A stretch of DNA of 64,000 bases, taken from the NCBI GenBank assembly GCA_031285965.1, contig JAITVD010000052.1:26410-90409 (forward strand). Direction: 5' to 3'. Under the pieces are notes generated by a model. The model did no database searches, was not told the DNA's origin, and worked only from the letters and a program-made list of their open reading frames with translations. The DNA comes from Azoarcus sp. (GTDB lineage: Bacteria; Pseudomonadota; Gammaproteobacteria; Burkholderiales; Rhodocyclaceae). Positions 1,992-21,212 of this stretch are shown here, in pieces. Each line of letters starts with the position of its first letter. Within the stretch, counting starts at the first letter, position 1. The position numbers were made by a program, and so were the translations under genes.

Positions 1992-2124
1992 CTGCGTCCA
2001 TTGCCATTTTTGGCAAGCATCAATAAGGGAGCGCCGGATTGTATCTTCCGGCACGGCAAATCACCAATGCGCGTCCCGGCTCGTCAAATGGCTTGTTTTG
2101 CGCATCCGGCGGACAAGGACACCA

Positions 2125-2685
2125 TCAGGAAACAAAAAGCGCCGCTGCCCCAAGCGCGGCAAAAAGCAGCGCCGCCACGACGCGGATTGTTTTCACGGGC
2201 AGCTTCTCGCCCAAGCGCCCGCCGACGAACACCGCCGGAACATCGGCAATGAGCATCCCCAAGGTCGTGCCCGCCACGACCAGCAGCGGCGAGCCGTATT
2301 GAGCCGCCAGCGCCACAGTGGCAATCTGTGTTTTATCCGCCATTTCGGCGATGAAAAAGCTGATAAATGTTGTAACAAATACGCCATGACGCGCCACCGT
2401 ACCTAGCTCTTCCCCATCGAGGCGATCTGGCACGAGCACCCACACCGCCATAGCGAGGAAAGACAGCCCCAGCACCCAGCGCAGGATTCCAGCGTCGATG
2501 AGGCTGGCCGCCAACGCGCCGACCGCGCCCGCCAGACCATGATTCACCAACGTCGCGCACAGGATGCCCAGCACGATAGGCCACGTTTTTCTGAAACGCG
2601 CCGCCAGCACGAGCGCCAGAAGCTGGGTCTTGTCGCCGATTTCGGCTAAGGCGACGACTCCCGTGGAAACAAGGAATTCGTTCAT
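2125..2685 (-). CDS. TMEM165/GDT1 family (UPF0016) cation transporter
   Basis: Two ALAEIGDKTQLLAL / AEMADKTQIATVAL motifs; ATGA overlap with upstream SIR2 gene. Confidence 0.9.
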   Translation of the reverse strand: MNEFLVSTGVVALAEIGDKTQLLALVLAARFRKTWPIVLGILCATLVNHGLAGAVGALAASLIDAGILRWVLGLSFLAMAVWVLVPDRLDGEELGTVARHGVFVTTFISFFIAEMADKTQIATVALAAQYGSPLLVVAGTTLGMLIADVPAVFVGGRLGEKLPVKTIRVVAALLFAALGAAALFVS

Positions 2686-3467
2686 TTGCTTGGCGGCTGC
2701 GGATGCAGGCAATCCCAGAGCGCCGACAACGCCTGCGCCGCGCCCATTTTCAGGCGATAGGAAACGATGGCGCTCACTTCAGTTTCGCCGGGATTGATTT
2801 CTACCGACGCAACGCCGTTCTGACGCGCCCACCACACCGGATGGGCAATGTAAGGAAAAACGCTGGTCGTGCCGACGGAAACCACAAGGTCAGGCTCATC
2901 TTCCATGACCCGCGCCAATTGCCCAAGCGCCAGTTGGGGCAGCATTTCCCCGAAAAGCACCACGTCAGGGCGCAGCGGCTTGGCACATTCGGGACATATC
3001 GGCGGTAGCGCAAGCCCCGCGTAATCCTCCACTTCGCGCTCATAACCGCAGGCGGCGCACAGCAGCCGATGCACGGTTCCGTGGATTTCAATCAGATTTT
3101 TCGTCCCGGCTTTGCGGTGCAGACTGTCGATATTCTGGGTCAGCACCCACAGGGCGGGTTTTTCCTTTTCAAACGCAGCAATCAGGCGGTGCGCGGCATT
3201 CGGTTCGGCTCCCCGGCAGTTGCTTTCAATTTGCCCGATATAGCGCCAAGTGACTTCGGGCCGACGCGCCAGCATCCGCCCGGAAAGCGCCTCCTCGATT
3301 GGCAAGCCCTCTTCCGTTAGGCGGTCGTTATAAAGCCCGCCGATGCCCCGATAAGTCGGCAAGCCGGAATCCGCCGAAATGCCCGCGCCAGTAATGAACA
3401 GCGGTCGCCGCGCACGGTCGAGCAAAGCCGCGACCTCGCCGAACATCGCCCCGGATGGGTCAATCAT
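2682..3467 (-). CDS. SIR2 family NAD-dependent protein deacylase
   Basis: FITGAGISADSGLPTYRGIGGLY, LTQNIDSLHRKAG, IEIHGTVHRLLC, zinc cysteines CAACGYE...CPECAKPLRPDVVLFGE. Confidence 0.92.
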   Translation of the reverse strand: MIDPSGAMFGEVAALLDRARRPLFITGAGISADSGLPTYRGIGGLYNDRLTEEGLPIEEALSGRMLARRPEVTWRYIGQIESNCRGAEPNAAHRLIAAFEKEKPALWVLTQNIDSLHRKAGTKNLIEIHGTVHRLLCAACGYEREVEDYAGLALPPICPECAKPLRPDVVLFGEMLPQLALGQLARVMEDEPDLVVSVGTTSVFPYIAHPVWWARQNGVASVEINPGETEVSAIVSYRLKMGAAQALSALWDCLHPQPPSK

Positions 3468-3490
3468 TGCTGCTTCTCCAGCCGTTCCAT

Positions 3491-4150
3491 TCAGTTCTTT
3501 TTGGGGGCGGGCTTTGATGATGTGATTTCGAGATATTGGCGATGGTCTGCATCGAAACGCTGCCGCAGGCTGTCGCGCTCATTGACCTTTCTTTCAATGG
3601 CCGCCCGCGCCCGCGCCAATTCCTCGTCAGCGTAGCCGATTGCCTTTCTCAGATCAGGCGAAACGGGTTTCCCCCCCAGCGCGGCCTGCTCGTCATCAAG
3701 GCTCTTGCGGCGGGCGGAGAGCTTTTCCTCTTCGGCGCGGAGCGCCCCGATGGACTTGTCCAGTCCGGCAATTTCATGGTCACGGTGCTGGACGAGCGCC
3801 TCCAGCGAGGCATATCTTTCCAGCAGCGCCTCATCCTGACGTTTTTTCTTGAGAGCCTCTTTCCGCGCCTCTTCCTGCTGGCGAGCCAATTCCCTGCGAC
3901 GGGCGCTCTCCTCCGGCGTGGGCGGAGCGTCTTCCCGGTGGACAACGATGCCGTTTCTCTTTTCGACCCAGGCGCGGCCATAGCATTCTTTCGGCAGGGT
4001 ATCGCCGTATACCGCCCGCCCGTGAACTTCGCAACTGAACACTCTCATCACCTTGCCCGGTTGCGCGTCAGCGGCAAACGACAAAGCCGCCAGCGCGGCG
4101 GCGGCAATCGCGTTCCGAAGAAAATCACCGTACCGCATCATGTGTTCCAT
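3491..4150 (-). CDS. DUF4124-like secreted protein with coiled-coil C-terminal part
   Basis: Signal peptide-like N-terminus, [24 protein letters not shown], then charged Glu/Arg/Lys-rich helical region. Confidence 0.6.
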
Positions 4151-4775
4151 AGACATCCCGATACGCCTGAACGGCTGCGAGATGGGTTTCAAGTTCCGGC
4201 GTATCGGCCAAATAAGCAATCAGGTCTTTGAGCGTTGCGACCGGCACGACCGGAATGCCGTAATGTTCCTCGACTTCCCGCACGGCGGAAATATCCCCTT
4301 GCCCCCGCTCCATGCGGTCCAGCGCAATGAGCAGCCCAGCCGGTTCCGCCCCATGCTTGCGGATAATACCTATCGATTCCCGCACCGAAGTGCCCGCTGA
4401 AATCACATCGTCGAGCACCAGCACCCGCCCTTTGAGCGGCGCACCGACCAACGTGCCGCCTTCGCCGTGGTCTTTTGCTTCCTTGCGGTTGAAAGCGAAC
4501 GGCACGTTCACGCCCTCCCCCGCCAAGCGCATCGCTGTTCCGGCCACCAGCGGGATGCCCTTGTAGGCCGGCCCAAAAAGCATATCGAACGCCACGCCGG
4601 AACCGAGAATCGCACGGGCATAGAATCCGCACAGGTCATTGAACGAATCTCCGTCGTCAAATAGGCCCGCATTAAAAAAATAAGGCGAAGCACGTCCAGC
4701 CTTGGTCACAAACGAGCCGAAGCGTAACACGCCCTTGCGGCAGGAAAGCTCTATGAAATCACGGCTGAATGACAT
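4125..4775 (-). CDS. pyrE: Orotate phosphoribosyltransferase
   Basis: [42 protein letters not shown] loop [16 protein letters not shown]. Confidence 0.95.
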
Positions 4776-4836
4776 ATGACCCCTGTTTTTTGTGCGGTGT
4801 CGCACATTATACTGGCTTCAATTTTCAGGAAAGGGC

Positions 4837-5619
4837 ATGGCGAGAATTGTCACCGCTAATCTTAATGGCATCCGCTCGGCAGCTCGCAAAGGTTTTTTTG
4901 ACTGGCTTGCGACACTTGATGCCGACATCGTTTGCGTTCAGGAACTCAAAGCCCAAGCTGGGGACATCTCCCCTGAAATGCACAATTTCGATAGGCTGAA
5001 AGGCTGGTTCCATTGCGCCGCAAAGAAAGGATACAGCGGCGTCGGGCTTTACAGCCGACACCACCCCCTGCGCGTCATCGAAGGGCTTGGCATGCCCGAC
5101 ATCGACGAGGAAGGACGATACCTGCAACTTGATTTCGAGGCGCTGTCCGTCGTCTCGCTCTATCTCCCTTCTGGTTCCAGTTCTCCCGAACGGCAAGCGG
5201 CAAAATTCAGTTTCATGGAACGTTTTCTGCCGCATCTGGCAAAACTTGCTGCCAATGGTCGCGAATGTGTGGTCTGCGGCGACTGGAACATCGCGCACCG
5301 TGAAATCGACCTTAAGAATTGGAAAAGCAACCAGAAAAACTCCGGCTTTTTGCCCGAAGAACGCGCTTGGCTTTCAAGCGTCCTCGGCGAACTGGGCTGG
5401 GTCGATGTCTATCGGCGACTCTATCCCGAAGCAGGCGGAGAAGGCTATACATGGTGGTCGAACCGGGGACAGGCATGGATCAAAAACGTTGGCTGGCGCA
5501 TCGACTATCAGCTTGCCACCCCGATGGTCGCGGCACAGGCGCTTAAAGCGGCTGTGTACAAAACCCAACGCTTTTCGGATCACGCGCCGCTTGTCATTGA
5601 TTACGGATTTGAACTGTAA
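4837..5619 (+). CDS. xth: Exodeoxyribonuclease III / ExoA-type AP endonuclease
   Basis: RIVTANLNGIRSAARKGFFDWL, DADIVCVQELKAQ, CGDWNIAHREIDLKNWK, SDHAPLVIDY. Confidence 0.93.
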   Translation: MARIVTANLNGIRSAARKGFFDWLATLDADIVCVQELKAQAGDISPEMHNFDRLKGWFHCAAKKGYSGVGLYSRHHPLRVIEGLGMPDIDEEGRYLQLDFEALSVVSLYLPSGSSSPERQAAKFSFMERFLPHLAKLAANGRECVVCGDWNIAHREIDLKNWKSNQKNSGFLPEERAWLSSVLGELGWVDVYRRLYPEAGGEGYTWWSNRGQAWIKNVGWRIDYQLATPMVAAQALKAAVYKTQRFSDHAPLVIDYGFEL

Positions 5620-5690
5620 ATCGCAGTGAGATAAAGCGTTTCCCGCCCGCCGCGTTCGCCCCGCAGCGGCTACAATTCCACGTTTTCAGC

Positions 5691-6794
5691 ATGGAACCGT
5701 TTCCGACGGAACAAACAATGCCTGCCGTCCAAATCGAAAATCTCAATATCCGCTCCATAGACCATATGCCCTCGCCGGAGGAAATCAAAGCGCAGGTGGC
5801 GCTGGACGATGATGCGGCGGCGACGGTGGCGGCAGGGCGACAGGCGTTCATCGACATTCTCGACCGACGGGATGCGCGGCTGTTCGTCATCGTTGGCCCC
5901 TGCTCCATCCATGACCCCGTTGCGGGTCTCGATTACGCTCGGCGGTTGCGCGCGCTGGCGGATGAAGTGGCGGGCACGCTGATGCTGGCGATGCGCGTGT
6001 ATTTCGAGAAGCCGCGCACCGCCGTTGGCTGGAAAGGCTTCATCAACGACCCTTGCATGGACGATTCTTTTCGCATCGACGTGGGCATGGAAAAGGCGCG
6101 GCATTTTCTGCGCGAAATCTCGCGCATTGGGTTGCCTATCGCCACCGAGGCGCTCGACCCCATCGCGCCCCAGTATTACGGCGACCTCATTTCCTGGACG
6201 GCCATCGGGGCGCGGACTTCCGAATCGCAGACCCACCGTGAAATGGCCTCCGGCCTCTCGACGCCGGTCGGCTTCAAGAACACGACCGATGGCGATATGG
6301 CGGCGGCCATCAACGCCATTCTCTCGGCGGCGAACCCTCACAGTTTTCTGGGCTTGAACGCCAAGGGCGAGTCAGCCATCGTGCGCACGCGGGGCAACCC
6401 GCACGGCCATATCGTGCTGCGCGGCGGAGAACGCCCCAATTACGATTCCGTCTCCGTCTCCTATGCCGAACAGGCGCTTGCCAAGGCGGGGCTGCCCCGC
6501 AACATCGTCATCGACTGCTCTCACGGCAATTCATGGAAACGCCCCGAAATGCAGCCTCTGGTGATGAAAGACGTTATCAACCAGATACGTGACGGCAACC
6601 AGTCTATCGTTGGGCTAATGGTGGAGAGCAACCTCGTGGCGGGCAACCAGCCCATCCCCGCCGACCTGTCGCAGCTCAAATACGGCTGTTCCGTTACGGA
6701 TGCCTGTGTCGGATGGGAAACCACCGTCGAGATGCTCCGCTCCGCTGATGCGGTTTTGCGCGAAACGATTGGGACGCGGGGCAAGCCCGAATGA
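5691..6794 (+). CDS. aroG: 3-deoxy-7-phosphoheptulonate (DAHP) synthase, class I AroG/F type
   Basis: VIVGPCSIHDPVAGLDYA, MRVYFEKPRTAVGWKGFINDP, SGLSTPVGFKNTTDG, RGGERPNYD; start may be Met at 5718. Confidence 0.93.
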   Translation: MEPFPTEQTMPAVQIENLNIRSIDHMPSPEEIKAQVALDDDAAATVAAGRQAFIDILDRRDARLFVIVGPCSIHDPVAGLDYARRLRALADEVAGTLMLAMRVYFEKPRTAVGWKGFINDPCMDDSFRIDVGMEKARHFLREISRIGLPIATEALDPIAPQYYGDLISWTAIGARTSESQTHREMASGLSTPVGFKNTTDGDMAAAINAILSAANPHSFLGLNAKGESAIVRTRGNPHGHIVLRGGERPNYDSVSVSYAEQALAKAGLPRNIVIDCSHGNSWKRPEMQPLVMKDVINQIRDGNQSIVGLMVESNLVAGNQPIPADLSQLKYGCSVTDACVGWETTVEMLRSADAVLRETIGTRGKPE

Positions 6795-7630
6795 ACCTGC
6801 TCGTTCAGGGCAACGCGTTGGTGCCTTTCGTTCTTCGATCATTGGCTCGGCTCACCGGCACGGATGGCTACGAGCTGATCGACGGCTGCGCATGTCGGTT
6901 TGATGGAAAAAACCGTTCGCAAATCGCGGACGAAGTGGCCCGCCTCTGCGCGGACAACGCGCTTGATTGGGCTTGGATACCCAAAGAGCGACGCTTGTCC
7001 GATTTCGGGCTTTTCGTCACCGACATGGATTCCACCCTCATCAATATCGAGTGCATCGACGAAATCGCCGATATGCACGGGGTCAAGCGCGAGGTGGCCG
7101 CCATTACCGAATCGGCGATGCGCGGCGAAATCGACTTTCGCACTTCGCTAGAGCGCCGCGTCCGGCTGCTGGCCGGACTGCATGAGCAGGCGCTAGCAAA
7201 GGTCTACGCCAAGCGCCTGCGGCTCAATCCCGGCGTGGAATCTCTCATGGCAAGCCTCAAGGCTGCCAAGGTGCGAACCGCGCTCGTCTCCGGCGGTTTT
7301 GCTTATTTCACCGACCACATGCGGCGGAAACTGGGCTTTGATTATGCTTGGGCCAATGAATTGGAAGTCGTCGATGACCGCCTCACCGGAAAGCTGGTCG
7401 GCTCCATGCTCGACGCTCAAGCCAAGGCTGACCGCCTCACCGCGACCCGCGACGCTCTTGGCCTCGCTCCTGAGCAAGTTCTGTGCTGCGGGGACGGGGC
7501 GAACGATATTCCCATGTTCCGCGCTGCGGGCTTCGGCGTCGCCTACCGACCCAAACCCGCACTGCGCGAAATCGCCGACTGTTGCCTCGACCACGTCGGG
7601 CTGGAAGGCATTGCGCGGCTGTTTGCCTGA
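6791..7630 (+). CDS. serB: Phosphoserine phosphatase
   Basis: FVTDMDSTLINIECIDEIADMHG, VSGGFAYFTDHMRRKLGFDYAWANELEV, CCGDGANDIPMFRAAGFGVAY. Confidence 0.95.
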   Translation: MNLLVQGNALVPFVLRSLARLTGTDGYELIDGCACRFDGKNRSQIADEVARLCADNALDWAWIPKERRLSDFGLFVTDMDSTLINIECIDEIADMHGVKREVAAITESAMRGEIDFRTSLERRVRLLAGLHEQALAKVYAKRLRLNPGVESLMASLKAAKVRTALVSGGFAYFTDHMRRKLGFDYAWANELEVVDDRLTGKLVGSMLDAQAKADRLTATRDALGLAPEQVLCCGDGANDIPMFRAAGFGVAYRPKPALREIADCCLDHVGLEGIARLFA

Positions 7631-7640
7631 GAACCCGGCT

Positions 7641-7665
7641 CCCCCGCCCGCAAACGGGCGAGGGG
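7641..7665. terminator. Possible bidirectional hairpin between convergent serB and PKS gene
   Basis: CCCCCGCCCG-CAAA-CGGGCGAGGGG stem-loop in the short convergent intergenic region; no clear U tract. Confidence 0.35.
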
Positions 7666-7677
7666 CGCGGAATTCGG

Positions 7678-10600
7678 TTATGCCGCAGCCAAGTAGGCGC
7701 TGATTTTGTCCTTGTCCCCGGCAATGGCCAAGATGTTCGCGTCATTCCCGCGAATGACTTCGTTGGCAAAGAAGGGCGCACCGTCTTCCATCCTAAGCAG
7801 GCTGATGCCCCGCTTCATGAACTCCCGCTCCAGCGCGTCGGAGACCATGCCCGCGCCTTTCCACGGCCCCCAGCCAATCGAGATGGATTTCACCGGGGCA
7901 GCGTTTGCGCTCAGGATGTATGAGGCCGTATCAAACACGCTGTTGGCGGACGCATAGTCGCATTGCCCGCGATTGCCCACGGCGGCGGCGATGCTGCTGA
8001 ACAGGACAAGACGTTTCAGGCCGGGAAGCGGCTCGCTGAAAATCACCTCCAGCGGGTTGATTTTCGTGTAGTAGGTTCGCGCAAAAGAATCCCATGACTT
8101 ATCCCGGAACAACTTGTCTTCCAAAATTCCCGCCGCGTGGGAGATGGCATCGACCCTGCCGTATCTGGCGCTGACTTCCCGCATGAAGGCACGCAAAGCA
8201 TCTTTGTCGCTGACATCGACCGCGTGATATTCAGCCGTCCCGCCCGCTGCTTCAATCCTTTCCAGAGCTTCCTGAATGCCAAGGATTTTGAAAATCATCT
8301 GCACGAGCACTTCGGTTTCTTTAGGATTGGACGCTTCGCCGGACTGAATCAGGTGCTTGCGGATGTCGTCCTTTGTTTTCAGACCAAGGGCGGCATATTT
8401 GTCCGCGACTTCATGGTTGAAAATCGTTCTGCCCGCCAGCACGAAACGGCATCGGGACTCTTTCGCCAAGCTGGCGAGCAGGTCGGGGGAAATTCCCTGC
8501 GCGCCGCCCAGCGCCACCACGACGGCATCCTTATCCAATATGGCGGAGGTTTCTTCCGTTGCGTTTTCGCCGCCCGTGTCTTCCACGCTCACGGCAAAAC
8601 GCATGCGCCTGTCCATTTCATAGAGGATTTCGGGAACGTCCCCGCCATCGACGATTTCCGCAACAGCCAGATCGAGGATTTTTTCCCGCGCAAAGGGCGT
8701 CATGCTGGAGACGACTTTCGCGGCCATTTCTGGATATTCGATGCACAAGGTTTTGATGAAGCCGGGGAAGCCTTGCAGCGCCGACAGCCCGCTGTAATCC
8801 CCTTCTTTCAACTGTGCGCCCGCCATGCCGGGGGCGTCGTCGAGAACAATGACGCGGCGCAGCTTTTCCGGTTCGGCCTCTTTGACCATTTGGAACAAAT
8901 CCTGAATCGTACAGGCGGAAGGCGAGATGCCAAGATTCAGGACGACGATGCCGTCTGCTTCCCCAAGATTCAGGATGACGGTGCCGTCTGCTTCCGACAG
9001 CCCATAGAAACCCTCTGCGCCGCGCCGGACGATTTGCGCCTCGGCGCCCAGTTTTTCCAGCCGCGCCTTCAGTTCATCGGCGATGAGGCCATCGTCCGTG
9101 ATGGCGAAACGCATCCCCGTGAGCGATACCGTGTTGCTTTCGTCCAGCGGATATTCCTCCGTGCGCACCCTGATGCGGGCAATCCCGTAAGGCTCCTCCA
9201 GCGGTTCAGCGTCCGCCGTCCCAGACAAGGCTTGCTGCTCCTGAATCATGGCATCGTAAAAACTCAGTTCCTCTTTCTCATCCGCAGGGGCTTCCTTCGC
9301 GGGCGCGTCTTGCGTGGCAGTGTCGCCTTTCTCGCCGCGCACGGCCTGCGCCTGTTCCTCGATCCAGGCAACAAGCCCGTTCAGGCTCTTGATGGCGGCG
9401 ATTTGCTCCAGCCCCGACATATCTTCCATGCTCGGGAATACCATGCGCTCGCCAAGCGCGCTGATGATTTCCAGCCGCTTGATGGAGTCGATGCTCAGGT
9501 CGGCTTCCAAATCCATATCCATATCCAGCATATTGATCGGATAGCCGGTCTTGTCGCTGACCACGTCCAGCAGAATATTTTTGACATCCTCCGAGCTGAG
9601 GTCGGTGATATGGGGAATGGCCGCGTTTTCCGCAGATTCCGCAGGCGGCGCGGCTTCCGCCGTGCTGGGTTCTTCCTCCTCCGGTTTCCATGCTTCTTCC
9701 GGGGCGGCGGAAACATATTCGATTTGCCTGGGCGCGGCGGCCATCCTTGGATAAGCGGCATGTCCCATATAGCCCAGCATGACATCCCTCTGGTCATCTA
9801 TCATCGCTTTCATATTGTCGAGATAGGCAAGGACGATTTTTTCGCGTGACGCGGCGCTATCCGGGCCATTTGCGATTCCGTGTTTTGCCAATTGAGCCAT
9901 TTTCAGTTCCTCAAACGAGATAAGTGGTTTTGCGGGCGGGCGTTTTTCCCCGCTCTTTCGTAGCTGCTCCGGCGAAATAGCGCCCGTTCCGTCCAGCAGC
10001 CAAGCGGTTTTGCTCCGCTTCAATGTTTCTGGCGCGTCGAAATCGATTGGGCGGGCGTTTCGGCCTTCAAACAGTTTTTCCAGCCGAAGCGCCCTGCCCG
10101 TAGACAGGTAGCGGGCCAGTGCCATGAGGAAATCCCGCAGCCCTTCCGGCCCATTGCGTTCGGTCTGTATCGTGACAATGTCCTTGCCAAGCGTGGCGGT
10201 GGCAAGCCCGCTCATCGCACCGCCCGGCCCCGTCTCGATAAATATCCTCGCGCCTTTCTCGTACATGCGTTCAAGCCCTTGCCGGAACAGCACCGGGCTG
10301 CCCAATTGGCGGCAAAGCATCTCCCGTATCTGCGCGTCGGTTTCGGGATAGGGTTCCGTGGTCGTATTAGAGAGCACGGGAATGGCGGGCGCGGCAAACG
10401 CCCTGCCCGCGAGCGCCTCGCTGAACAGTTCTCCGGCTTTTGCGAGCAGCGGCGTGTGGAACGCGCAGGCGACATCGAGTTTCTTGAAAGCAATCTTTTG
10501 GCTGCGGAGCTTTTCCATGAACGCGGCCATTGCGTCTGTGGTTCCGCCAACCACCGTTTGCTCCGGCGAGTTGTAATTGACTGCCCAAACTTCGGATTCC

Positions 10601-13600
10601 GGTTCCAGCAACTCGGCAAGCTCATCGGCAGGCATCATGACGGCAGCCATTACCCCTTTGTCTTGCGGCATCGCGTTGAAAATGGATTCCGCCCGAAGTT
10701 TGGAAATTTCCGGCAAATCTTGACGAGCGAACGCGCCCGCATAGCACAGCGCCGCCAATTCGCCGTAGCTGTGTCCGGCGGCCATGTCCGGCACGACACC
10801 CAAATCGGCCAATAAATCGGCAATCGCCAAATCCACGATGCCTAAAAGCGGCTGCGCGTTGCGCGTATCCGTGATGGCGCTTCGCTGCGCGTTGATTGCC
10901 TCATCCGTAAACGCGGTTTCCGGGAAAAGACGCCGCGCATAGGCCGGGTTCCGCTCCAGCAATCCGCGCATGGACGGGAACAGCACAAAGAGTTCCCGCG
11001 CCATATTTACGCGCTGGCTGCCTTGCCCCGGAAACAGGAAAGCGACCCGGCCTTCCTTTTCTTCGCGCAGCAAGACATTGCGGCTCTGCTTGCCGGAGAG
11101 CGCGCATTCGAGGCTTTGGAGCAATTCCTCCCGCGAGGCGGCAATGATGCTTGCCTGAACGGGCTGCGAGCCGCAGTCCATCGCCAGGCTCTTCGCCACA
11201 TCTTTAAGTGATAAGCGCAGATTTGCTTCCAGAACATTTACGGTTTTCCGCATCCATTCTTTCGCTTGCTCCAGAGTGTCGCCCCGGAACACGAACATCT
11301 CGCACGGCCATGAACTCAGAACGGAGCCGATTGGCGCAGGCGCGTCATGGTTTTCCAGAACCGCGTGGAAATTGGTTCCGCCGAAACCGAAACCGCTGAT
11401 GCCCGCAATCCGTTTTGGGCTGTTCCACAGACTGGCTTGCCCGACGTTGAAAACGAAAGGGCTGTTATCCGATGAAGCGGTGATGGGTTTTTTCAGGTTC
11501 AGCGTGGGCGGCAAGATGCCATGATGAATTGCCAAAGCGGTTTTAATCAGCGACGCGACGCCCGCCGCGCATTTTGTATGCCCGATCAGCGTCTTGGCGG
11601 AACCGATGTACGTCTGCCCTGGCAACGCGCCCGCGCCAAGGAAAACGTCCGAGAGCGCCGCCAGTTCGTTTTTGTCGCCCGCCACCGTGCCTGTTCCATG
11701 CGCTTCGACCATGCCGACTTCGGACGGAAGGATGCCCGCGTCGGCGTAAGCTCGCCTCAACGCCTTTTCCTGCCCCTTCCGGTTCGGCGCGGTCAGCCCC
11801 AAGCTGCGCCCGTCGCTGCTGCCGCTCACGCCACGGATGACGGCGTAAATTCTGTTGCCGTCGCGCTCCGCGTCCTCCAAACGCTTCAGGACGACGACGC
11901 CCACCCCTTCGCCCAAAGTGATGCCGTCCGCCTCCGCGTCGAACGTCGCGCAGCGGCCTGTTTTGGAGAGCGCGTGGCAGCTTGCGAACATCATGTAATC
12001 AAAGATGCTGTTGTGCAAATCCGCCCCGCCCATGATGACCATGTCCGAGCGTTCGTTCCACAATTCCTGGCAAGCCAAATCCAGCGAGGCCAGCGACGAA
12101 GCGCAAGCGGCATCGACGGAATAGTTTCGCCCGCCGCAGTTCAGGCGGTTGGCGATGCGTCCGGCCACCACGTTTGAGAGCATTCCGGGGAAGGAATCTT
12201 CCGTCAGCTTTGGCAGGTCGCCTTCCAGAGGTTCCGGCACTTCGCCGAAAGACATTTTGAATCCCAGCCGCAAGCCATACGCCGAGGACAGGTCGCCCGC
12301 CGCCTGCGTCCCGAAAATGACGGAGGTATTATCCAGGTCGGCTTTCGCAAGATTGTCGATGCCCGCGTCCTGCAATGCGCGTCTGGCGGCAAGCAGGGAC
12401 AAAAGCTGGACGGGTTCGATGGAGGAGACGGACTGCGGGGCAATCCCGAATTCCAGCGGGTCGAATTCCGTGCCGGACAGAAAAGCCCCCCATTTTGAAA
12501 CGGTGTAATCGCCCTCTTTCGAGTTCGATCCGTAGAACAGGTCGGTGTTCCAGCGGCACTCCGGCACTTCCTGGACGCTGTTGCGCCCCATGACCATATT
12601 CCGCCAGTATTCTTCGAGGTTATCAGCGTCAGGGAAAATCCCTGCCATGCCGATAATCGCAATGCCGTCACGGTCATTGAGCGGTTTGAAATCTTCCTGC
12701 CATGCCGAATCCAGCTTGGCAATCATCGCGGCAGCGCCGTCGCACACGTCCTCGTGCAGCCCCTTCATCGTGAGCTTGCGCCGGATGATGGCAATGTTCT
12801 GCCCCGTCATGAACAGCCCTCTTTGCAACTGCTCATCGACCGGCACGGCGACAACGTCGTCGTCATCCTGCCCGTCCGCCAGCCTCTCCAGCCCCTTGGC
12901 AGCGATTCTTGCCCGACCAAGGTTCATCTCTTCCAGCGCGGCGCGCATCGCCAAGGGTTCCAAGGCTTGCGCCTTGATTTTTTCCTTTTCCCGCTGGAAA
13001 TGCGCCGTATAGGGCGTGGGTATCGCACGGGTTTCTTGGCCGGGGCTGGATTCCAGCAAGACCGTCCGGTCTGCCCTAATGGCCTGTTCCTGAAACTGTT
13101 CCGTAATCGCGCCTGTCTGAACGGCTTCTTCCGCGCACAGATAGGCCGTGCCCATGAGAACGCCTACCTTTGCCCCCGAAGCGGCCAGCGGAGCCGCCAT
13201 CACAGAAACGAACGCGGACGAGCAGGCATCATGGATGCCGCCCGCAAAAAAGACCGTCAGTTCGGGCTTGGTATCGAATCCCAGAAGGACTTCAAGCTGC
13301 TTTTCCCAAAGCAAGGTGCTCGGCAAAGGCCCGACATGCCCGCCGCTTTCCCGGCCTTCAAAAATGAAGCCCCTTGCGCCCTCTTTCAGGTAATTCTCCA
13401 GCAAGGCGGCGGAAGGCACGTGCAGAAGCGCATGAATCCCGGCTTTTTCAAACTTTTTCGCTTGGGAGGGATGCCCGCCGGCAATGACGACCGCCCGAGG
13501 CTTTGGCGAAAGGGCGGTAATTTTCTGAATCTGCTCCTCGACCAGTTGCGGATAGGCAAAGCCTAGTATCCCAACGCCCCACGGCAGCCCCGCCATTACG

Positions 13601-14634
13601 GCGGAGGCATCCGCCAAGGCTTTTTGCGCCAAATCCCCGCTCGTCAGGCCCAGCGCCAAAAAGGGCATCGCGCCTTCTTCGGAGACGCGCCGCAGAAACG
13701 CGGGCGTATCGCTGACACGCGCCATCGGCCCCTGAGCGATGGGATAGCGGATGCCCAGTTTTCCCGCCAGATCGCTTTCTGCCCGAACCGCTGGCCGATG
13801 CTTGGCTTGCCTCAAATGCCCATAAGCCGCTTCACGAACGGCAAACACCAAAGATTTCAATGTCGCGTAACGCTTGGCAAAACCCGCAGCCAGCATGACA
13901 TCCTGACCGAGAGGAATGACATGTTCCTGCCCCGTCCCGCCCAGATGCGGCAAAATTTCCGCGAAACTGGAATCTTCAGAAATTTTGCTCGCCCCCGGCG
14001 GCTGCCATGCCCGGAAATCCCCAAAAAGAACCGTTTCGTTGCCGCTCAATTTGCCCAGCCGCGCCTTGAGTTCCTTATCCGCGCCGCATTCAGGGAACAG
14101 CGCAACCTGCGAATCGAAAATAACGCCGTCGGCTCCCAAAGCAAGATAGGCGGCGGAAGAATGAACCCCCGCACCTCCTTGGATATATATCTTTACGCCG
14201 TGCTCAAAACACAATTCACGAACCCGCTGGAACAGGATGAATGACGATTCCTGCGCAACGCGCCCCGCCCCCTCGCTGCCTTTAATGACAATCGCAGCGG
14301 CTTTCGCGTTAATAGCGGCTTGCGCTTCTTCCACCGAAAGAACCTGAACTAGCCGCTCCGCGTGGCTTTCGTTTTTGAGATTCAACCCAAAAGGCAAAAT
14401 GATTTTTTTGACATTTTCGGGAAAATCCAGCCGCCCGATTTCTTCATCGCAGACACAAACGCCAAAGCCATGCGTTGTGCTTTGGGCAAAATTCTCAAGA
14501 ATTTCTTTAGCGGCATGAGCATTTCTGCCAAGATGCAGCACAGGAAACGCAGCCGCTTTGAGCGTTCCCTTCGCCAGCTGCATATCTGGCAGTTCAAATG
14601 GGGAAAGAATCAGAATTTCTTTTTGTTTGCTCAT
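7678..14634 (-). CDS. Multidomain PUFA-synthase/PKS-like megasynthase (NMO/ER-like - KS - AT - ACP - KR), 2318 aa
   Basis: FMN-type enoylreductase/nitronate monooxygenase region (YPIAQGPMARVSD, FEGRESGGHVGPLPS); KS (VDAACASSLASLD, VEAHGTGT, GSAKTLIGHTKCAAG); AT (FLFPGQGSQ, GHSYGELAAL); ACP (DLEADLSIDSIKRLEII); KR (VVALGGAQGIS, SHAAGILEDKL, YASANSVFDT). Confidence 0.92.
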   Translation of the reverse strand: MSKQKEILILSPFELPDMQLAKGTLKAAAFPVLHLGRNAHAAKEILENFAQSTTHGFGVCVCDEEIGRLDFPENVKKIILPFGLNLKNESHAERLVQVLSVEEAQAAINAKAAAIVIKGSEGAGRVAQESSFILFQRVRELCFEHGVKIYIQGGAGVHSSAAYLALGADGVIFDSQVALFPECGADKELKARLGKLSGNETVLFGDFRAWQPPGASKISEDSSFAEILPHLGGTGQEHVIPLGQDVMLAAGFAKRYATLKSLVFAVREAAYGHLRQAKHRPAVRAESDLAGKLGIRYPIAQGPMARVSDTPAFLRRVSEEGAMPFLALGLTSGDLAQKALADASAVMAGLPWGVGILGFAYPQLVEEQIQKITALSPKPRAVVIAGGHPSQAKKFEKAGIHALLHVPSAALLENYLKEGARGFIFEGRESGGHVGPLPSTLLWEKQLEVLLGFDTKPELTVFFAGGIHDACSSAFVSVMAAPLAASGAKVGVLMGTAYLCAEEAVQTGAITEQFQEQAIRADRTVLLESSPGQETRAIPTPYTAHFQREKEKIKAQALEPLAMRAALEEMNLGRARIAAKGLERLADGQDDDDVVAVPVDEQLQRGLFMTGQNIAIIRRKLTMKGLHEDVCDGAAAMIAKLDSAWQEDFKPLNDRDGIAIIGMAGIFPDADNLEEYWRNMVMGRNSVQEVPECRWNTDLFYGSNSKEGDYTVSKWGAFLSGTEFDPLEFGIAPQSVSSIEPVQLLSLLAARRALQDAGIDNLAKADLDNTSVIFGTQAAGDLSSAYGLRLGFKMSFGEVPEPLEGDLPKLTEDSFPGMLSNVVAGRIANRLNCGGRNYSVDAACASSLASLDLACQELWNERSDMVIMGGADLHNSIFDYMMFASCHALSKTGRCATFDAEADGITLGEGVGVVVLKRLEDAERDGNRIYAVIRGVSGSSDGRSLGLTAPNRKGQEKALRRAYADAGILPSEVGMVEAHGTGTVAGDKNELAALSDVFLGAGALPGQTYIGSAKTLIGHTKCAAGVASLIKTALAIHHGILPPTLNLKKPITASSDNSPFVFNVGQASLWNSPKRIAGISGFGFGGTNFHAVLENHDAPAPIGSVLSSWPCEMFVFRGDTLEQAKEWMRKTVNVLEANLRLSLKDVAKSLAMDCGSQPVQASIIAASREELLQSLECALSGKQSRNVLLREEKEGRVAFLFPGQGSQRVNMARELFVLFPSMRGLLERNPAYARRLFPETAFTDEAINAQRSAITDTRNAQPLLGIVDLAIADLLADLGVVPDMAAGHSYGELAALCYAGAFARQDLPEISKLRAESIFNAMPQDKGVMAAVMMPADELAELLEPESEVWAVNYNSPEQTVVGGTTDAMAAFMEKLRSQKIAFKKLDVACAFHTPLLAKAGELFSEALAGRAFAAPAIPVLSNTTTEPYPETDAQIREMLCRQLGSPVLFRQGLERMYEKGARIFIETGPGGAMSGLATATLGKDIVTIQTERNGPEGLRDFLMALARYLSTGRALRLEKLFEGRNARPIDFDAPETLKRSKTAWLLDGTGAISPEQLRKSGEKRPPAKPLISFEELKMAQLAKHGIANGPDSAASREKIVLAYLDNMKAMIDDQRDVMLGYMGHAAYPRMAAAPRQIEYVSAAPEEAWKPEEEEPSTAEAAPPAESAENAAIPHITDLSSEDVKNILLDVVSDKTGYPINMLDMDMDLEADLSIDSIKRLEIISALGERMVFPSMEDMSGLEQIAAIKSLNGLVAWIEEQAQAVRGEKGDTATQDAPAKEAPADEKEELSFYDAMIQEQQALSGTADAEPLEEPYGIARIRVRTEEYPLDESNTVSLTGMRFAITDDGLIADELKARLEKLGAEAQIVRRGAEGFYGLSEADGTVILNLGEADGIVVLNLGISPSACTIQDLFQMVKEAEPEKLRRVIVLDDAPGMAGAQLKEGDYSGLSALQGFPGFIKTLCIEYPEMAAKVVSSMTPFAREKILDLAVAEIVDGGDVPEILYEMDRRMRFAVSVEDTGGENATEETSAILDKDAVVVALGGAQGISPDLLASLAKESRCRFVLAGRTIFNHEVADKYAALGLKTKDDIRKHLIQSGEASNPKETEVLVQMIFKILGIQEALERIEAAGGTAEYHAVDVSDKDALRAFMREVSARYGRVDAISHAAGILEDKLFRDKSWDSFARTYYTKINPLEVIFSEPLPGLKRLVLFSSIAAAVGNRGQCDYASANSVFDTASYILSANAAPVKSISIGWGPWKGAGMVSDALEREFMKRGISLLRMEDGAPFFANEVIRGNDANILAIAGDKDKISAYLAAA
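8930..8995 (-). repeat. In-frame tandem duplication, 2 x 33 bp, inside the megasynthase gene
   Basis: ccaagattcaggaYgacgRtgccgtctgcttcc at 8930-8962 and 8963-8995, encoding EADGTVILNLG / EADGIVVLNLG. Confidence 0.9.
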
Positions 14635-14652
14635 TGTTGAAAAGCCTCCAGC

Positions 14653-17600
14653 TTAAATCGTCCACCCAAGCACATGGTTTGTTCCAAGTTTCGCCGTTTT
14701 TGCGCAAACGTCGCCCAACATGATTTCCTCGCCGCTGACATGCGTAATCTCCAGTTTGGCTTCCTTGCCAAGTACTTTCCTGCAAGCGGCTTTTGCCGCC
14801 AAAAAACGGGCAACCCATTCCAACCTGTCATCTTTCGGCAAGCAGGAGCGTTCTTTTTGCGTCAATTCGCCTTCATGAGCAGGAATATTCAACTCCTCGA
14901 CAGATAGAATTTCTATTCCAACGGGCTTATTTGAAGCCACCGCAACAGAATGTTCTTCTGTCTGAGCCAGTGACGCAAAAATGCCATCCAGATTTTCATT
15001 CCCCAAGTTCTTTAGCCGCATACTGCCTAAATCGCCTTCATCACTTTCCGCATGGATTTCCACCGGAAAACAGTAAGGCGCATCGCCATTTCTGGAATAG
15101 GTGCGTATCGCATCTTTCAAGGCTACGCGCCCTGATAAATAAGCCTGTTTTTGTTCTTTGTCATCCAAACTATCATATTTATCCTTTTCAATATGGCTCA
15201 GATATCTTTTATACAAAAAATCTATGCTATAAGATTTAGCGTAGGTATTAAAGTAATAATATGCGCCAGCGCCCAGTGAAGAAGCCAAAATGGTACTTTG
15301 AGGTTTCACAAATACATTCCATAAATCAATGCCAAGCTCAAAACGCTGATTGACCCAAGACTTTATCACTGCCCAAATTTTGCCTTCCCGCGACAAAATG
15401 GCATCCGCCACGATATAGTTCTTTGTCAAATCAGTCACAATCATGATTAGCTTGAATTTTCCGTCTTGGTCGGAAATATCTGAGTAAAAATTTAGCTCGC
15501 TCAATCGCACCGGAAAGGTTGCCCTATTTTCTTGTTCTGTCAGGTGCATATATATACCAACGGCCTGACCGAGGCTATCCAGCAGCGAACCTTTGGCTTC
15601 GCCTCTTTCTGCATCAATGCGTAAGCCTCCTTCAGAAATATAGGTAATATCTTTGATTGAGCGATATAAAGGGTCATGAAAAGAATAACGTTCATAGGCT
15701 TCCTCACCGGGCATCGGCGGTCTAGATTCCTTACCTAAATCTATTTCTTTTTTCCAAATCTCGGATGGAACAGGATATTGGTCTCCAAATGTTACTTCCA
15801 ATTTCAAATATCCGGCCAAAGTTAATTCTAGTGTATTTTCATCCTTCCACTTTCCTTTCACAACACCTTCAAACGGTTTATCCGCCTGTATAAAGCGTAT
15901 CGCAAATAAATTACTAATTTTTAGTATTTTTCTTTGTGGCGCTTGTTTTTGTGCAATCTCAGCGAACGTTTCAATGGAAAACGTCAAAGGAGCAACAGGA
16001 TGCAAATCTTTGGGGTGTTTCCAACCCTTTGGCTGCCGAACAATGGCATGGTCGAGAAGATAGGGATAGCTCTCCAAATCAATTTTAATTGTCTCTGAAA
16101 ATGTTGTTCCTGTCTTTTTAGAGTTTGAGGGTTTCTGGGGCGTTTTAGACAAAGCAGGCTTGACCGGAGCAGGAGATTTTCGTACAGCAATATGATTTTC
16201 CCCATTTTTCTTGAGAAACAAATCAATCATCTCTTTTTGGACGAGAGCCGCATCACGCAGATTGTCATTGAGGACATTTAATAGCGGGCTGGCATGTTTA
16301 TCCGCAACAGAGTCATGCAGAAAATCCAGATTTGCCGTCATTCCGCTTTTTTCGTTGTTTTTGGCGACCGCCTCCCGCAAGCTCGAAAAACTGCTGACAT
16401 CATTGACAGGCGCGCCAACAGGCAGTTTCAGTAAATTTTTGGCTTCTCTTATACACGCGGGCATTCCCATGAAAGCAAGGTCAGCAGCCTTGGAACCCTC
16501 TATATAGAGCAGCGCGTGGATGCGCCTCATCTGGTCAATCGCGGGGCGCTGCGATGTCAGCGTAGGCATCACCGCATACTCCCGATTTTTCAGATTGTCC
16601 TCTACAAATTTATCTAGGCTGCCGTCGCCCATTTGCACAAAAATTCGGGCATTTTCTTCATGATAAAGTTTTTCGATTAGTTTGCGGAAATAAACAGGCT
16701 CTCTTAGATTCAACGATAACTGTTCTACGAATGAATCTTTCGTGACTGGAGAAAAGTCTAACGCAGACCAGAGAGAGACATGGGTGGCTTGTACCTGTAG
16801 TTTTTTGAGGCTTTCGCGCAATTCTTCCACATAGGGATAGTACGGTGTATGGGCTGAAGACCCATACTCTAATTTTTGAGCATATATTTTTTCTTTTTTT
16901 AAGGCATCCAAAAACTTTTCTTTTGTTTCTTCTCCAATAGCACATACAATAATTTGACCGGGGCAATTATCCGCTATCAAGTAAAGCTCTGGTATTGTCT
17001 TAAAGATATTATCTATCTCTGGCGATTCATATTTAGCGTTAACTGAAAAATAGGCATACTCCTCAAAAGACTTTTTTTCTATTTCCTGTTTTCCCAAAAA
17101 ATCGAGACAAATCCTTCCAAAATCTTCTTCAAACATGCCTGAAGCCGTGGCAGCGTTCCATTCTCCGAGGCTGTGGCCAATATAAATGTCCGCAGAAATA
17201 TTCTGTTTTTTAAACGCAGAAACCATCAATCGAGCATCAAAAAAATGCACCAACGAGAGATCTTTCATGTTTTCTTGCAACTCATCTTCAACGCTAAGCA
17301 AATCCAAAGCATCGCTCACCGTTGTAGTATCATTATCATTACGTTCATTCAAATTAAAGCCTGAAAACATAAAAACAAGTTTTCCGCCGGACGAAAGCAG
17401 CGGTTTATTTGTAAACCATATATCGTCCCTTCCAATGCAGGGCTTTCCTTCTTGAATAATATCTATTGCTTTTTTGACTCGTTCGTAGGTGTTATTAAAA
17501 ACGACAATACGATAGTCACCGCTGGTATCGCTCAGGTTTGAGCCGGTAGACTGTTGCAGTTTTGCTATCAGTTCTTCTGCGGAGGATGCCGCGACGGCAA

Positions 17601-19119
17601 TGCAGTCATCCGCGAGCATTTCCTGTCTTGCGGCACGATAACGCTTGCGCTGTTCTGGCGTTTCTTCATAGGCGACGAGAATGGCATGCGCGTTCACCCC
17701 GCCAAATCCGAACGAATTGACCCCGGCAACGGGGGGAATTTGCTCAAAATCCCAAGGAATCAATTTTTGCGGCGGCCTAAAACGGGACTCAAGCATGGCG
17801 GGCAAGGGGTTCTCGCAATGCAGGGTTGCCGGAATCTGCCGATTGAAAAGCGACAGGGCGGTCTTAATCAGCCCAAGCATTCCCGCCGCAGGCATGGTGT
17901 GGCCGATATTGGATTTCAAGGAACCCACATAAGCCCGTGGGGAGGCATTGCCGCCGAAGAATCGGGTGAGGGCCGCAATTTCGGTTTTGTCGCCAATCGG
18001 CGTGCCTGTGCCATGCGCCTCCACATAGCCGACTCTTTCGGGATCCATCCCGGCTTTCTCCCAAACCGTCCGCAGGGTTCTTTCCTGGCCTTGGACGGAA
18101 GTCACCATGACATGAGAGCCGCCGCCATCGCTGCAAATGGCCGCTTCCTTGATGATGGCATAAATTCTGTCGTCGTCCTTCAGGGCTTTTTCAAGGGTTT
18201 TCAGGATGATGAACCCTCCCCCTTGCCCGACCAGCAGCCCATCCGCGTCTTGGCTGAAAGGCGAAATCTGCTGCTTCCGGGACATCGCGCCCATCATGTT
18301 GAACGCGCTCCAGAACGTGGCGCTTTGCGTGCAGTGCAGCCCTCCCGCCACGGCAACGTCGCACTGCCCGCTGCGGAGCAGCTTCATGCAGTGCTCGACC
18401 GCCAGCAGCCCGCTCGCGCAGGCGGCGTCTATCGTGTAGGCGGGGCCTTGCATGTCGAACTTGTTCGCCGCAAAGGAAGCCACTAGATTCGTCATCGTGC
18501 CAATCGCGGTGTCGCCCTGATAGCGCCCTTGGCGTTGTTGATATTCTTTTTTGACTTTTTGAATATCCGCCTCTGAAGCGTTCGGCAAGGCAATTCTCAG
18601 TACATCGGCAATCTCCTCCGCAAAACGGATGATCTCCAAAGCACGGAGGGTGACAAGCCCCGCAAAATTGCCTTTTCCAATAATGACACAACCATTTTTT
18701 AAAGAAATCTTTTTTTGAAAAATACCCGCATCGGTCAGCGCCTCATCAATGCCCATCAATGAAACCAATTGGTCTGGATCCAAGCCGTCTGCCGAAATAG
18801 GCAAAAATCCATACCGCAGAGGATCAACTGAAATTCCTTTTACAAAACCGCCCCGTTTGCAATAAAACCTGTCAATTGCACCCGGCTCTTTTTCAAAATA
18901 AAACGGGTCAATGATATTTTCTGGCGCTTCAGTAATGGAATCCACTCCATTCGCGAGATTTTTCCAGAATGCGCGCCTGCCGGCTGCGCCAGCGCAAGCA
19001 ACAGATATTCCAACAATCGCAATGTCCTGCTTTTCAGTTTTGATGCCAGTACTTTCCACGCTGCTCATTTTTTCCTCATCCACCGCAAAAACGCCAAAAC
19101 TAGACCCCGTACTTTTCAT
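14653..19119 (-). CDS. Second PUFA-synthase/PKS-like protein (KS - AT - double-hotdog DH-like - divergent PPTase-like), 1488 aa
   Basis: KS (YTIDAACASGLLAVEH, VEAHGTGTPIGDKTE, GSLKSNIGHTMPAAG); AT (IGHSLGEWNAATASG); DH-like (LLDHAIVRQ...HPVAPLT, GSLLDSLGQAVGIY); C-terminal AcpS/Sfp-like (VGIEILSVEEL, WVARFLAAKAACRKVLG). Confidence 0.88.
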   Translation of the reverse strand: MKSTGSSFGVFAVDEEKMSSVESTGIKTEKQDIAIVGISVACAGAAGRRAFWKNLANGVDSITEAPENIIDPFYFEKEPGAIDRFYCKRGGFVKGISVDPLRYGFLPISADGLDPDQLVSLMGIDEALTDAGIFQKKISLKNGCVIIGKGNFAGLVTLRALEIIRFAEEIADVLRIALPNASEADIQKVKKEYQQRQGRYQGDTAIGTMTNLVASFAANKFDMQGPAYTIDAACASGLLAVEHCMKLLRSGQCDVAVAGGLHCTQSATFWSAFNMMGAMSRKQQISPFSQDADGLLVGQGGGFIILKTLEKALKDDDRIYAIIKEAAICSDGGGSHVMVTSVQGQERTLRTVWEKAGMDPERVGYVEAHGTGTPIGDKTEIAALTRFFGGNASPRAYVGSLKSNIGHTMPAAGMLGLIKTALSLFNRQIPATLHCENPLPAMLESRFRPPQKLIPWDFEQIPPVAGVNSFGFGGVNAHAILVAYEETPEQRKRYRAARQEMLADDCIAVAASSAEELIAKLQQSTGSNLSDTSGDYRIVVFNNTYERVKKAIDIIQEGKPCIGRDDIWFTNKPLLSSGGKLVFMFSGFNLNERNDNDTTTVSDALDLLSVEDELQENMKDLSLVHFFDARLMVSAFKKQNISADIYIGHSLGEWNAATASGMFEEDFGRICLDFLGKQEIEKKSFEEYAYFSVNAKYESPEIDNIFKTIPELYLIADNCPGQIIVCAIGEETKEKFLDALKKEKIYAQKLEYGSSAHTPYYPYVEELRESLKKLQVQATHVSLWSALDFSPVTKDSFVEQLSLNLREPVYFRKLIEKLYHEENARIFVQMGDGSLDKFVEDNLKNREYAVMPTLTSQRPAIDQMRRIHALLYIEGSKAADLAFMGMPACIREAKNLLKLPVGAPVNDVSSFSSLREAVAKNNEKSGMTANLDFLHDSVADKHASPLLNVLNDNLRDAALVQKEMIDLFLKKNGENHIAVRKSPAPVKPALSKTPQKPSNSKKTGTTFSETIKIDLESYPYLLDHAIVRQPKGWKHPKDLHPVAPLTFSIETFAEIAQKQAPQRKILKISNLFAIRFIQADKPFEGVVKGKWKDENTLELTLAGYLKLEVTFGDQYPVPSEIWKKEIDLGKESRPPMPGEEAYERYSFHDPLYRSIKDITYISEGGLRIDAERGEAKGSLLDSLGQAVGIYMHLTEQENRATFPVRLSELNFYSDISDQDGKFKLIMIVTDLTKNYIVADAILSREGKIWAVIKSWVNQRFELGIDLWNVFVKPQSTILASSLGAGAYYYFNTYAKSYSIDFLYKRYLSHIEKDKYDSLDDKEQKQAYLSGRVALKDAIRTYSRNGDAPYCFPVEIHAESDEGDLGSMRLKNLGNENLDGIFASLAQTEEHSVAVASNKPVGIEILSVEELNIPAHEGELTQKERSCLPKDDRLEWVARFLAAKAACRKVLGKEAKLEITHVSGEEIMLGDVCAKTAKLGTNHVLGWTI

Positions 19120-19215
19120 GAACCAAGCCGAGCACGTCCGGCCTCACGCCGCCCTGTCCAGCCCTTGCCATGCGCAAGGAGAAACGGGCGAGCTACCCAA
19201 AATGCATAGCTATAT

Positions 19216-19241
19216 ATACATTAACACAACATTTAATGTAT
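19216..19241. promoter_or_regulatory. 9-bp-arm inverted repeat in AT-rich leader upstream of the PKS operon
   Basis: ATACATTAA-CACAACAT-TTAATGTAT. Confidence 0.5.
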
Positions 19242-19282
19242 TTGCGAGATTTCTTGCGATTTATTTTTATGTGGTACTCATG

Positions 19283-19315
19283 CAACATCAAATGAAATGC
19301 TTATTTCATATGTTG
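19283..19315. promoter_or_regulatory. Second dyad in the same leader
   Basis: CAACA-tca-AATGAAAT-GCTT-ATTTCATA-TGTTG; perfect 7-bp core arms ATGAAAT/ATTTCAT. Confidence 0.4.
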
Positions 19316-19334
19316 ACGAGACATCCCCAGCATT

Positions 19335-21212
19335 CTAGCGGTTGAGCACTTTGCGCAAAAGTTCCGCGCTGGCAGGGTCATGCCAGCGAAGGAACGCTTT
19401 ATGGAGCCGCCTTTGCCGCTCGCCGCGCGCGCAAGCAATGGGTTCCAGTGCGTTTTTCAGCGGATTGAAACCGCTGTGGTACATGGCCGTGGCAAGGGTG
19501 AGCGGCGTGGGCAGGAAAGTCTGCACCTGATCCGGGCGAAAACCGCGCGATTGCAGCCAGTGCATGAGCCGAAACATGTCCTCGTCCGTCGTGCCGGGGT
19601 GAGCCGCAATGAAATACGGGACGAGATGCTGCTTTTTGCCCGCGCGGCGGCTGGCGCGTTCAAAGAGCGCGGCAAAAGCGTCGAAATCTTCGATGGGCGG
19701 CTTCATCATCGCCGCCAGCGGATGAGGCTCGCTGTGCTCGGGCGCGATTTTCAGCAGCCCGGAAACATGGTGCGCCGCCAGTTCGGCAACGTATTCCGGG
19801 CTGCGCGCGGCAAGGTCGTAGCGCACGCCGGAGCCGATGGTGATTCTTTTGACGCCGCGCACGCCACGGGCAGCGCGGTAGAGCGCAATCAGCGGCGCGT
19901 GGCTGGCATCGAGCCGGGAACAGACATTCGGCCAAACGCAGGACAATCTTCGGCAGGCGGCCTCGGCGCTCTTGTCGCGGCAAGCCATCCGGTACATGTT
20001 GGCGGTGGGGCCGCCAAGGTCACTGATATGCCCTTTGAAACCGGGCGTGCGGTCGCGGATGTCCGCAATCTCGCGCAAGATGGATTCCTTCGAGCGGCTC
20101 TGGATGACGCGGCCTTCGTGCTCCGTGATGGAGCAAAACGTGCAGCCACCAAAACAGCCGCGCATGATGCTGACGGAGAAACGAATCATCTCCCAAGCGG
20201 GGATACGCGCCCGCCCATAGGCAGGATGCGGGCGGCGGGCATAGGGCAGCCCGTAGACGAAATCCATCTCATCCGTCGAGAGCGGCAGCGGCGGCGGATT
20301 GAGCCAAACATCCCGCATTCCCGTCCCTTCGCCGTGGCGCTGCGCAAGCGCGCGCGCGTTGCCAGGATTGGATTCAAGATGAAACACCCGCGAGGCGTGG
20401 GCATAGAGTAAGGAGTCAGCCTTGACTTGCTCGAAGGACGGCAGGCGGATGACGCTGCGGGCGCGGTCGGTTTTTTGCGCGGGTGCTTCGCGGGCGCGGC
20501 TCGCGTCTATTTCCGCCCAGCCTTCGGGATGCCAGCCGGGCGGAACCATGAAGGCCGTGCCGCGCAGGTTCCGAATCTCGGCAGCTTGCTCGCCCGCGTC
20601 GAGCCGCCGCGTAAAGTCGATGAGCGCCCGCTCGGCGTTCCCGTAAAGCAGAATGTCTGCCTTGGAATCCGCCAGCACGGAGCGCCGGACAGTATCGCTC
20701 CAGTAATCGTAATGGGCGATGCGCCGCAAGCTGGCCTCGATGGAGCCAATCATGACCGTCGCGCCCGGAAAGGCTTCTCGCGCCCGCTGGGCGTAAACGG
20801 TAACGGCGCGGTCGGGACGCTTTCCGGCCACGCCGTCCGGCGTGTAGGCATCGTCGGAGCGGATTTTTCTCTCGGACGTGTAGCGATTGACCATTGAATC
20901 CATGTTTCCGGCGGTCACGCCAAAGTACAGGCGCGGGCGGCCCAATGCGCGGAACGGCTCGGCGGAGCGCCAATCCGGCTGGCTGATGATGCCCACCTTC
21001 CAGCCGTGCGCTTCCAGCAGCCGCCCCACGAGCGCCATGCCGAAGCTCGGATGGTCGACATAAGCGTCGCCCGTCACGAGGATGACATCGCACTCCTGCC
21101 AGCCCAGCGCGTCCATCTCTTGCCGCGACATGGGCAGAAAAGGCGCGGGCGGCGCAGGGGGAAAAGCAGGAAGGATGGATTTCGGAAGCAGGAGCGCCCT
21201 CTCACCGGTCAT
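19335..21212 (-). CDS. YgiQ family radical SAM protein
   Basis: [41 protein letters not shown], radical [32 protein letters not shown]. Confidence 0.95.

Follow-up and report, generated by a model that had tools for sequence, protein, structure and literature searches.

What do two large, adjacent genes lying between serB and ygiQ in an Azoarcus genome encode, and is the system that they form still at work? The window analyzed here is a stretch of 64,000 nucleotides (64 kb) from contig JAITVD010000052.1 of that genome (labeled G000), and the pair within it, genes A and B, had been taken from the sequence alone for a polyunsaturated fatty acid (PUFA) synthase-like lipid locus with an unusual architecture. 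We find that the pair almost certainly belongs to a common two-protein family resembling the Type N secondary-lipid synthases. On balance, the locus is probably a horizontally acquired, stripped-down, non-PUFA iterative secondary-lipid synthase of this Type N-like kind, one that still works and makes an unglycosylated product. The two proteins share out enoyl reductase (ER), nitronate monooxygenase (NMO), ketosynthase (KS), acyltransferase (AT), acyl carrier protein (ACP), ketoreductase (KR), polyketide synthase (PKS)-type dehydratase (DH), and phosphopantetheinyl transferase (PPTase)-like regions as follows.

7678..14634, minus strand: gene A, PfaD/PfaA-like fusion, ER(NMO)-KS1-AT1-ACP-KR, 2318 aa (Pfam/NCBIfam; full-length homologues)
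12745..13773, minus strand: ER of A, NMO-like and PfaD-like, residues 288-630 (PF03060, E 9e-22; FEGRESGGHVGP motif conserved in the alignment)
11350..12669, minus strand: KS1 of A, residues 656-1095 (active-site Cys in DAACASS and both His present; KS tree)
10189..11043, minus strand: AT1 of A, residues 1198-1482 (GHSYGE and AFH motifs)
9448..9576, minus strand: single ACP of A, LEADLSIDSIKRLE, around residue 1715 (Pfam, motif)
7861..8517, minus strand: KR of A, residues 2040-2258 (PF08659, E 1e-23)
14653..19119, minus strand: gene B, KS2-AT2-DH-pseudo-PPTase, 1488 aa (open reading frame [ORF], Pfam, alignment of relatives)
17812..19029, minus strand: KS2 of B, residues 31-436 (Cys and both His intact; KS tree)
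16561..17193, minus strand: AT2 of B, residues 643-853 (GHSLGEW intact; PfaB-like position)
15340..16095, minus strand: double-hotdog PKS-type DH of B, residues 1009-1260 (catalytic His in LLDHAIV and Asp in LLDSLGQ intact)
14656..15297, minus strand: PPTase-like pseudo-domain of B, residues 1275-1488 (SLAH to SLAQ, GIDxE to GIEIL, KEA to KAA)

The two same-strand ORFs lie exactly where the sequence-only reading had put them, and its view of them as an iterative synthase of the Pfa/secondary-lipid type, with an ER-like module fused to a PfaA-like protein, was borne out by the domain profiles and by the KS tree. Pfam and NCBIfam recovered NMO/ER, KS, AT, and KR on protein A and KS and AT on protein B, and a chance match is of no concern, since the KS matches have E values below 1e-40 and the homologues are full length. 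The ACP of A scored 17.3 bits for PP-binding, below the cutoff of 20.8. B lies upstream (5') of A and is transcribed toward it across a spacer of 18 nt, and neither a frameshift nor an internal stop interrupts the 11.4 kb of coding sequence. The catalytic motifs of KS1, KS2, AT1, AT2, DH, and KR and the active-site motif of the ACP are all intact, and AT1 would be of the malonyl type to judge from its motifs.

The architecture had been thought peculiar to this locus, and that claim fell. When 85,462 species genomes were scanned with an alignment of A, 308 relatives came up, of which the best 80, nearly all from Bacteroidota, were kept. In 77 of the 80 loci gene B comes immediately after A. The two-protein architecture is therefore an established trait of the family and not something peculiar to the window, and the pair recurs on a Streptomyces plasmid and in members of the host family. 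The closest homologues of both proteins are two-gene pairs of Chitinophaga, Chryseobacterium, Pedobacter, Dysgonomonas, and their kin. In a KS tree built without enediyne KSs, KS1 and KS2 fell into two separate family clades, each with 98% support, with the other KSs apart. Such a phylogeny had been proposed as the way to learn whether both domains fall in a characterized family with the same architecture and a known product; it supplied the family and the architecture, while our literature searches found no product for the two-gene family, in keeping with the earlier statement that the product is unknown. Shulse and Allen (2011; PMC3098273) list a Type N secondary-lipid synthase in Chitinophaga pinensis and Chryseobacterium gleum, with an uncharacterized product, and assign an hShxH (P1b') PPTase motif to Types M to T; the PPTases of our relatives carry the hShxH motif. 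The type was thus catalogued in 2011, and what is unusual is the window copy, not the architecture. A region of this kind in Sphingobacterium has been labeled hglE-KS/T1PKS by antiSMASH, with no similar known cluster (PMC11446778).

The Type N-like relatives share with the window pair the ER-KS-AT-ACP-KR plus KS-AT-DH-PPTase layout on adjacent genes. They differ from it in gene order, which is A-B in most relatives and B-A here, and in ACP number, most Bacteroidota copies having 2 to 4 whereas A of the window has one. Those examined have also kept the PPTase active-site residues, while the PPTase of the window is inactive, and most relatives are flanked by a stand-alone ACP, a hydrolase, glycosyltransferases, and acyltransferases, none of which accompany the window copy. 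The single ACP was considered as a unique trait and rejected, as the Streptomyces and host-family copies also have one. KS2 is intact in the window. It is without catalytic residues in the B protein of an Apibacter locus (L055) and partly so in two others (L057 and L153); in the Apibacter protein the Cys region reads DSSYSS and HGTGT has become ASASS, resembling the pseudo-KS of PfaB, and in some members of the family KS2 may therefore act as a gatekeeper. In another relative (L050, from 63-11173), two in-frame stops between AT and DH split B into ORFs of 825 and 613 aa.

Could the pair be no more than a compressed version of the ordinary omega-3 PUFA synthase (Pfa Type A/B)? We consider this exceedingly improbable, the least probable of the accounts weighed here. 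The PfaA profile is indeed the best NCBIfam match to A, at 866.8 bits, but that score lies under the family cutoff of 1010.1, and KS1 stands outside the clade of PfaA-like proteins of 2537 to 2703 aa. With pfaABCDE the window pair shares a KS-AT-ACP-KR core, a PfaD-like ER, and a PfaB-like KS-AT. However, the canonical systems have a separate ER, 4 to 6 tandem ACPs, and a PfaC with KS-chain length factor (CLF) and two FabA-like DH domains, whereas the window has a fused ER, the single LEADLSIDSIKRLE of A with no tandem array, one PKS-type DH, and, as had been noted from the sequence, no CLF-bearing PfaC by domain scan. On the profile cutoff, the DH type, and the KS tree, a plain compressed PUFA synthase was rejected. 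PfaB has been shown to act as a terminal acyltransferase and to determine which PUFA is made (PMC12895367). AT2 of B likewise follows a KS, a parallel of position and motif only, and from that position AT2 is a candidate terminal acyltransferase. The heterocyst glycolipid (hgl, Type F) synthases have in common with our family the hglE-KS/T1PKS label and the glycosyltransferases of the relatives; their HglC is KS-CLF-AT (PMC3098273), and the window differs in layout and has no glycosyltransferase. Enediyne-type PKSs differ as well, being one protein of KS-AT-ACP-KR-DH-PPTase, where the window has two proteins, a second KS-AT, and an ER.

The C-terminal third of B needed evidence beyond Pfam, which detected neither a DH nor a PPTase-like tail there in the window's protein. 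Among 31 family members, Pfam found PF01648 (ACPS/PPTase) in 30 and PF14765 (PS-DH) in 21, and B of the window aligns with these relatives. An AlphaFold model of residues 1000-1488 reached a pLDDT of 89.8, and its N-terminal part resembles PKS DH double-hotdog structures, best 5hst (TM 0.75 by target) and also 3kg8. The DH is thus PS-DH and not FabA-like, according to Pfam in the relatives and to the structure match. With no FabA-type isomerase DH, methylene-interrupted PUFAs such as eicosapentaenoic and docosahexaenoic acids are not expected. DH sets of this sort can yield conjugated double bonds, as in enediyne and polyene synthases, and one PKS-type DH with intact residues and no isomerase would suit a conjugated polyene, a pigment or antioxidant made with the ER seldom used, in place of a saturated or hydroxylated lipid. 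Yet the ER is fused in A and conserved throughout the family with its GGHVGP motif, and the glycosyltransferases and PapA-type acyltransferases of the relatives point to a glycolipid, so that we regard a polyene as improbable.

The sequence-only reading had listed KS, AT, KR, ER, and DH regions and a PPTase-like tail, and all of these domains are there, but the tail does not hold up as a PPTase: its active site is lost and, judged by its residues, it is catalytically dead. The catalytic residues are intact in every relative examined whose PPTase region was present, and the active PPTase with a P1b' hShxH motif that marks the relatives was not found in the window copy. Over the last 110 residues of B, the window is only 23 to 34% identical to its relatives, while two of these (L051 and L150) are 49% identical to each other. 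The ACP must therefore be activated by another enzyme. PF01648 occurs in one protein of the window's genome, an AcpS-like protein on the contig that carries fab genes, and most congeners have one as well.

What else is missing became clear from the neighborhoods of the relatives. Glycosyltransferases (EryCIII/UDPGT-like), usually two, accompany the pair in 73 of the 80 loci, nearly all with an alpha/beta-hydrolase; PapA/condensation-like acyltransferases or a PMT-like protein are also frequent, and in the loci inspected a small stand-alone ACP separates B from the hydrolase. Since glycosyltransferases go with the pair in most relatives, the ancestral product was probably a glycolipid. At the window locus no downstream ACP, alpha/beta-hydrolase, or glycosyltransferase gene was found, and homologues of the family glycosyltransferases are absent from the whole of its genome, which makes an unglycosylated product probable. 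They are absent as well from the genomes of three relatives (L049, L050, and L051), and in a fourth (L052) they occur only next to a second cluster, which is of the classical kind. Two class-mates (G138 and G063) and three genomes of the host family (G815, G876, and G940) have A-B plus a glycosyltransferase. The plasmid of Streptomyces sp. NBC_01243 (L162, NZ_CP108492.1:114850-129824) bears a complete A-B-ACP-hydrolase-glycosyltransferase-methyltransferase operon; it is linear and mobilizable, with IS3 and IS6 transposases adjoining the operon, and is likely a vehicle for the spread of the family. The Streptomyces and host-family copies consist of the same two proteins, 28 to 44% identical to those of the window, and have one ACP in A, but they retain helper genes and an intact PPTase and form a clade separate from the window. 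Some gut genomes (G454, G456, and G459) hold two A-B pairs, and in G456 one pair has glycosyltransferases and the other has none.

How did the pair come to stand where it does? The housekeeping setting between serB and ygiQ had been recognized correctly, but that description was incomplete, since the locus is an insertion into the serB-ygiQ junction.

6791..7630, plus strand: serB, left flank, convergent (TIGR00338; 84% identical in congeners)
19335..21212, minus strand: ygiQ, right flank (TIGR03904; up to 90% identical in congeners)
7632..19350, no strand, approximate ends: inserted segment relative to congeners (congener comparison)

In two congeners (G009 and G020), serB adjoins ygiQ with no A-B pair between, and the pair is absent from all other sampled congeners. 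Congener homology ends at the serB stop codon and restarts at the end of ygiQ, leaving about 11.7 kb extra in the window. No flanking repeats or mobility genes were seen at the insertion ends, and a mobile-element boundary was rejected, the junctions having no repeats. A segment foreign to the genome, brought in by assembly or binning, is very improbable. The assembly is a draft of 90 contigs in which no 16S was found, and the GC content of B, 0.46, is aberrant in a host of 0.60; nevertheless a single contig carries A and B together with long stretches of flanking sequence to either side, the flanks are 84 to 90% identical to congeners with an intact junction, and A is near the host in GC (0.58) and in GC at third codon positions (GC3; 0.68). 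In B, GC3 is 0.64 to 0.86 in codons 200 to 450, the KS2 core, and mostly 0.24 to 0.54 elsewhere. That contrast raised the idea of a chimeric B, which was rejected: KS2 and the remainder of B share one phylogenetic placement and thus give no sign that the parts differ in ancestry.

The trees of A and B agree in grouping the window with a Propionibacteriaceae metagenome-assembled genome (MAG; L051) and a Bacillota MAG (L054/G458). This group is nested among gut Bacteroidota MAGs (L050 and L052, and L049 too in the A tree), inside Bacteroidota, in a gut clade that spans Bacteroidota, Actinomycetota, and Bacillota. The isolate code of L054, Cu122, denotes Cubitermes ugandensis (PMC7024585), and the codes Gx, Im, and Md look like termite-MAG codes of the same sort. 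Forcing the window together with the host-family copies cost 432 log-likelihood units (approximately unbiased [AU] test, p-AU 6e-82), and forcing it with those copies plus the class-mates gave a p-AU of 6e-80. The AU rejection and the nesting in the gut clade argue for cross-phylum transfer rather than descent within the host family. Vertical inheritance was accordingly rejected, the A-B-glycosyltransferase loci of the host family grouping with Streptomyces and the class-mates.

Does the acquired pair still function? It may be a recent acquisition already decaying, with an ACP no longer activated, its offloading and tailoring partners gone, and no working pathway. The lost PPTase residues, a PPTase region far more diverged than in L051 and L150 (identities of 28 to 34% against 49% over residues 1380-1488), an AT2 more diverged than KS2, the low GC of B, and the absent helper genes all speak for this. 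We nonetheless think it rather unlikely, though a serious alternative, as the reading frames are open throughout, the KS, AT, DH, and ACP active-site motifs are intact, and a loss confined to one domain is what would be expected of a dispensable PPTase if AcpS serves the ACP.

In the working Type N-like synthase that we prefer, AT1 would, by what is known of the family, charge the one ACP with malonyl, and KS1 and KS2 would perform the condensations. Each added unit would then be processed by KR, the fused PfaD-like ER, and the PKS-type DH, to a degree of reduction that can be selected. AT2, in the PfaB position, would deliver the completed chain, a long one, to an acceptor. The expected product would be a long-chain acyl, whether saturated, hydroxylated, or conjugated. 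In most relatives the hydrolase probably releases the chain, and glycosylation, often with acylation as well, probably turns it into a glycolipid. The product of the window, if made, would probably be an unglycosylated acyl chain passed to host lipids or released, its ACP probably activated by the host AcpS. Several points weigh against this account. The equation with the Type N of Shulse and Allen is suggested by shared genera and by the relatives' PPTase motifs, not by a domain diagram; the searchable literature holds no biochemical or lipid data for the family; and the dead PPTase, the want of a stand-alone ACP or hydrolase, and the faster divergence of the AT and PPTase of B also fit decay.

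A broader proposal is possible, if somewhat short of probable: that the helper-free synthase has spread as one working whole through four phyla of bacteria living in insect guts (Bacteroidota, Actinomycetota, Bacillota, and that of the window) and makes an unglycosylated specialized lipid not previously known in these hosts, here under AcpS control after the loss of its own PPTase. The recurrence of cross-phylum transfer in the gut suggests that bacteria living there benefit from the lipid. The family is common, with its 308 relatives in one genome set, and the searched literature names no product for it; the gut copies, reduced to two proteins, offer a convenient minimal system for studying the core chain and the roles of the helpers.

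Around the insertion, aroG and serB lie on one side and ygiQ, ispF, ispD, apbE, gshB, and gshA on the other. One congener (G016) has, on contigs C87 and C122, other PKS-like genes with extra PPTases alongside, unlike the genome of the window. Farther along the window, at 30270-36796, a bacterial alpha-2-macroglobulin-like protein (1571 aa) precedes a secreted protein with DUF2300 (608 aa).

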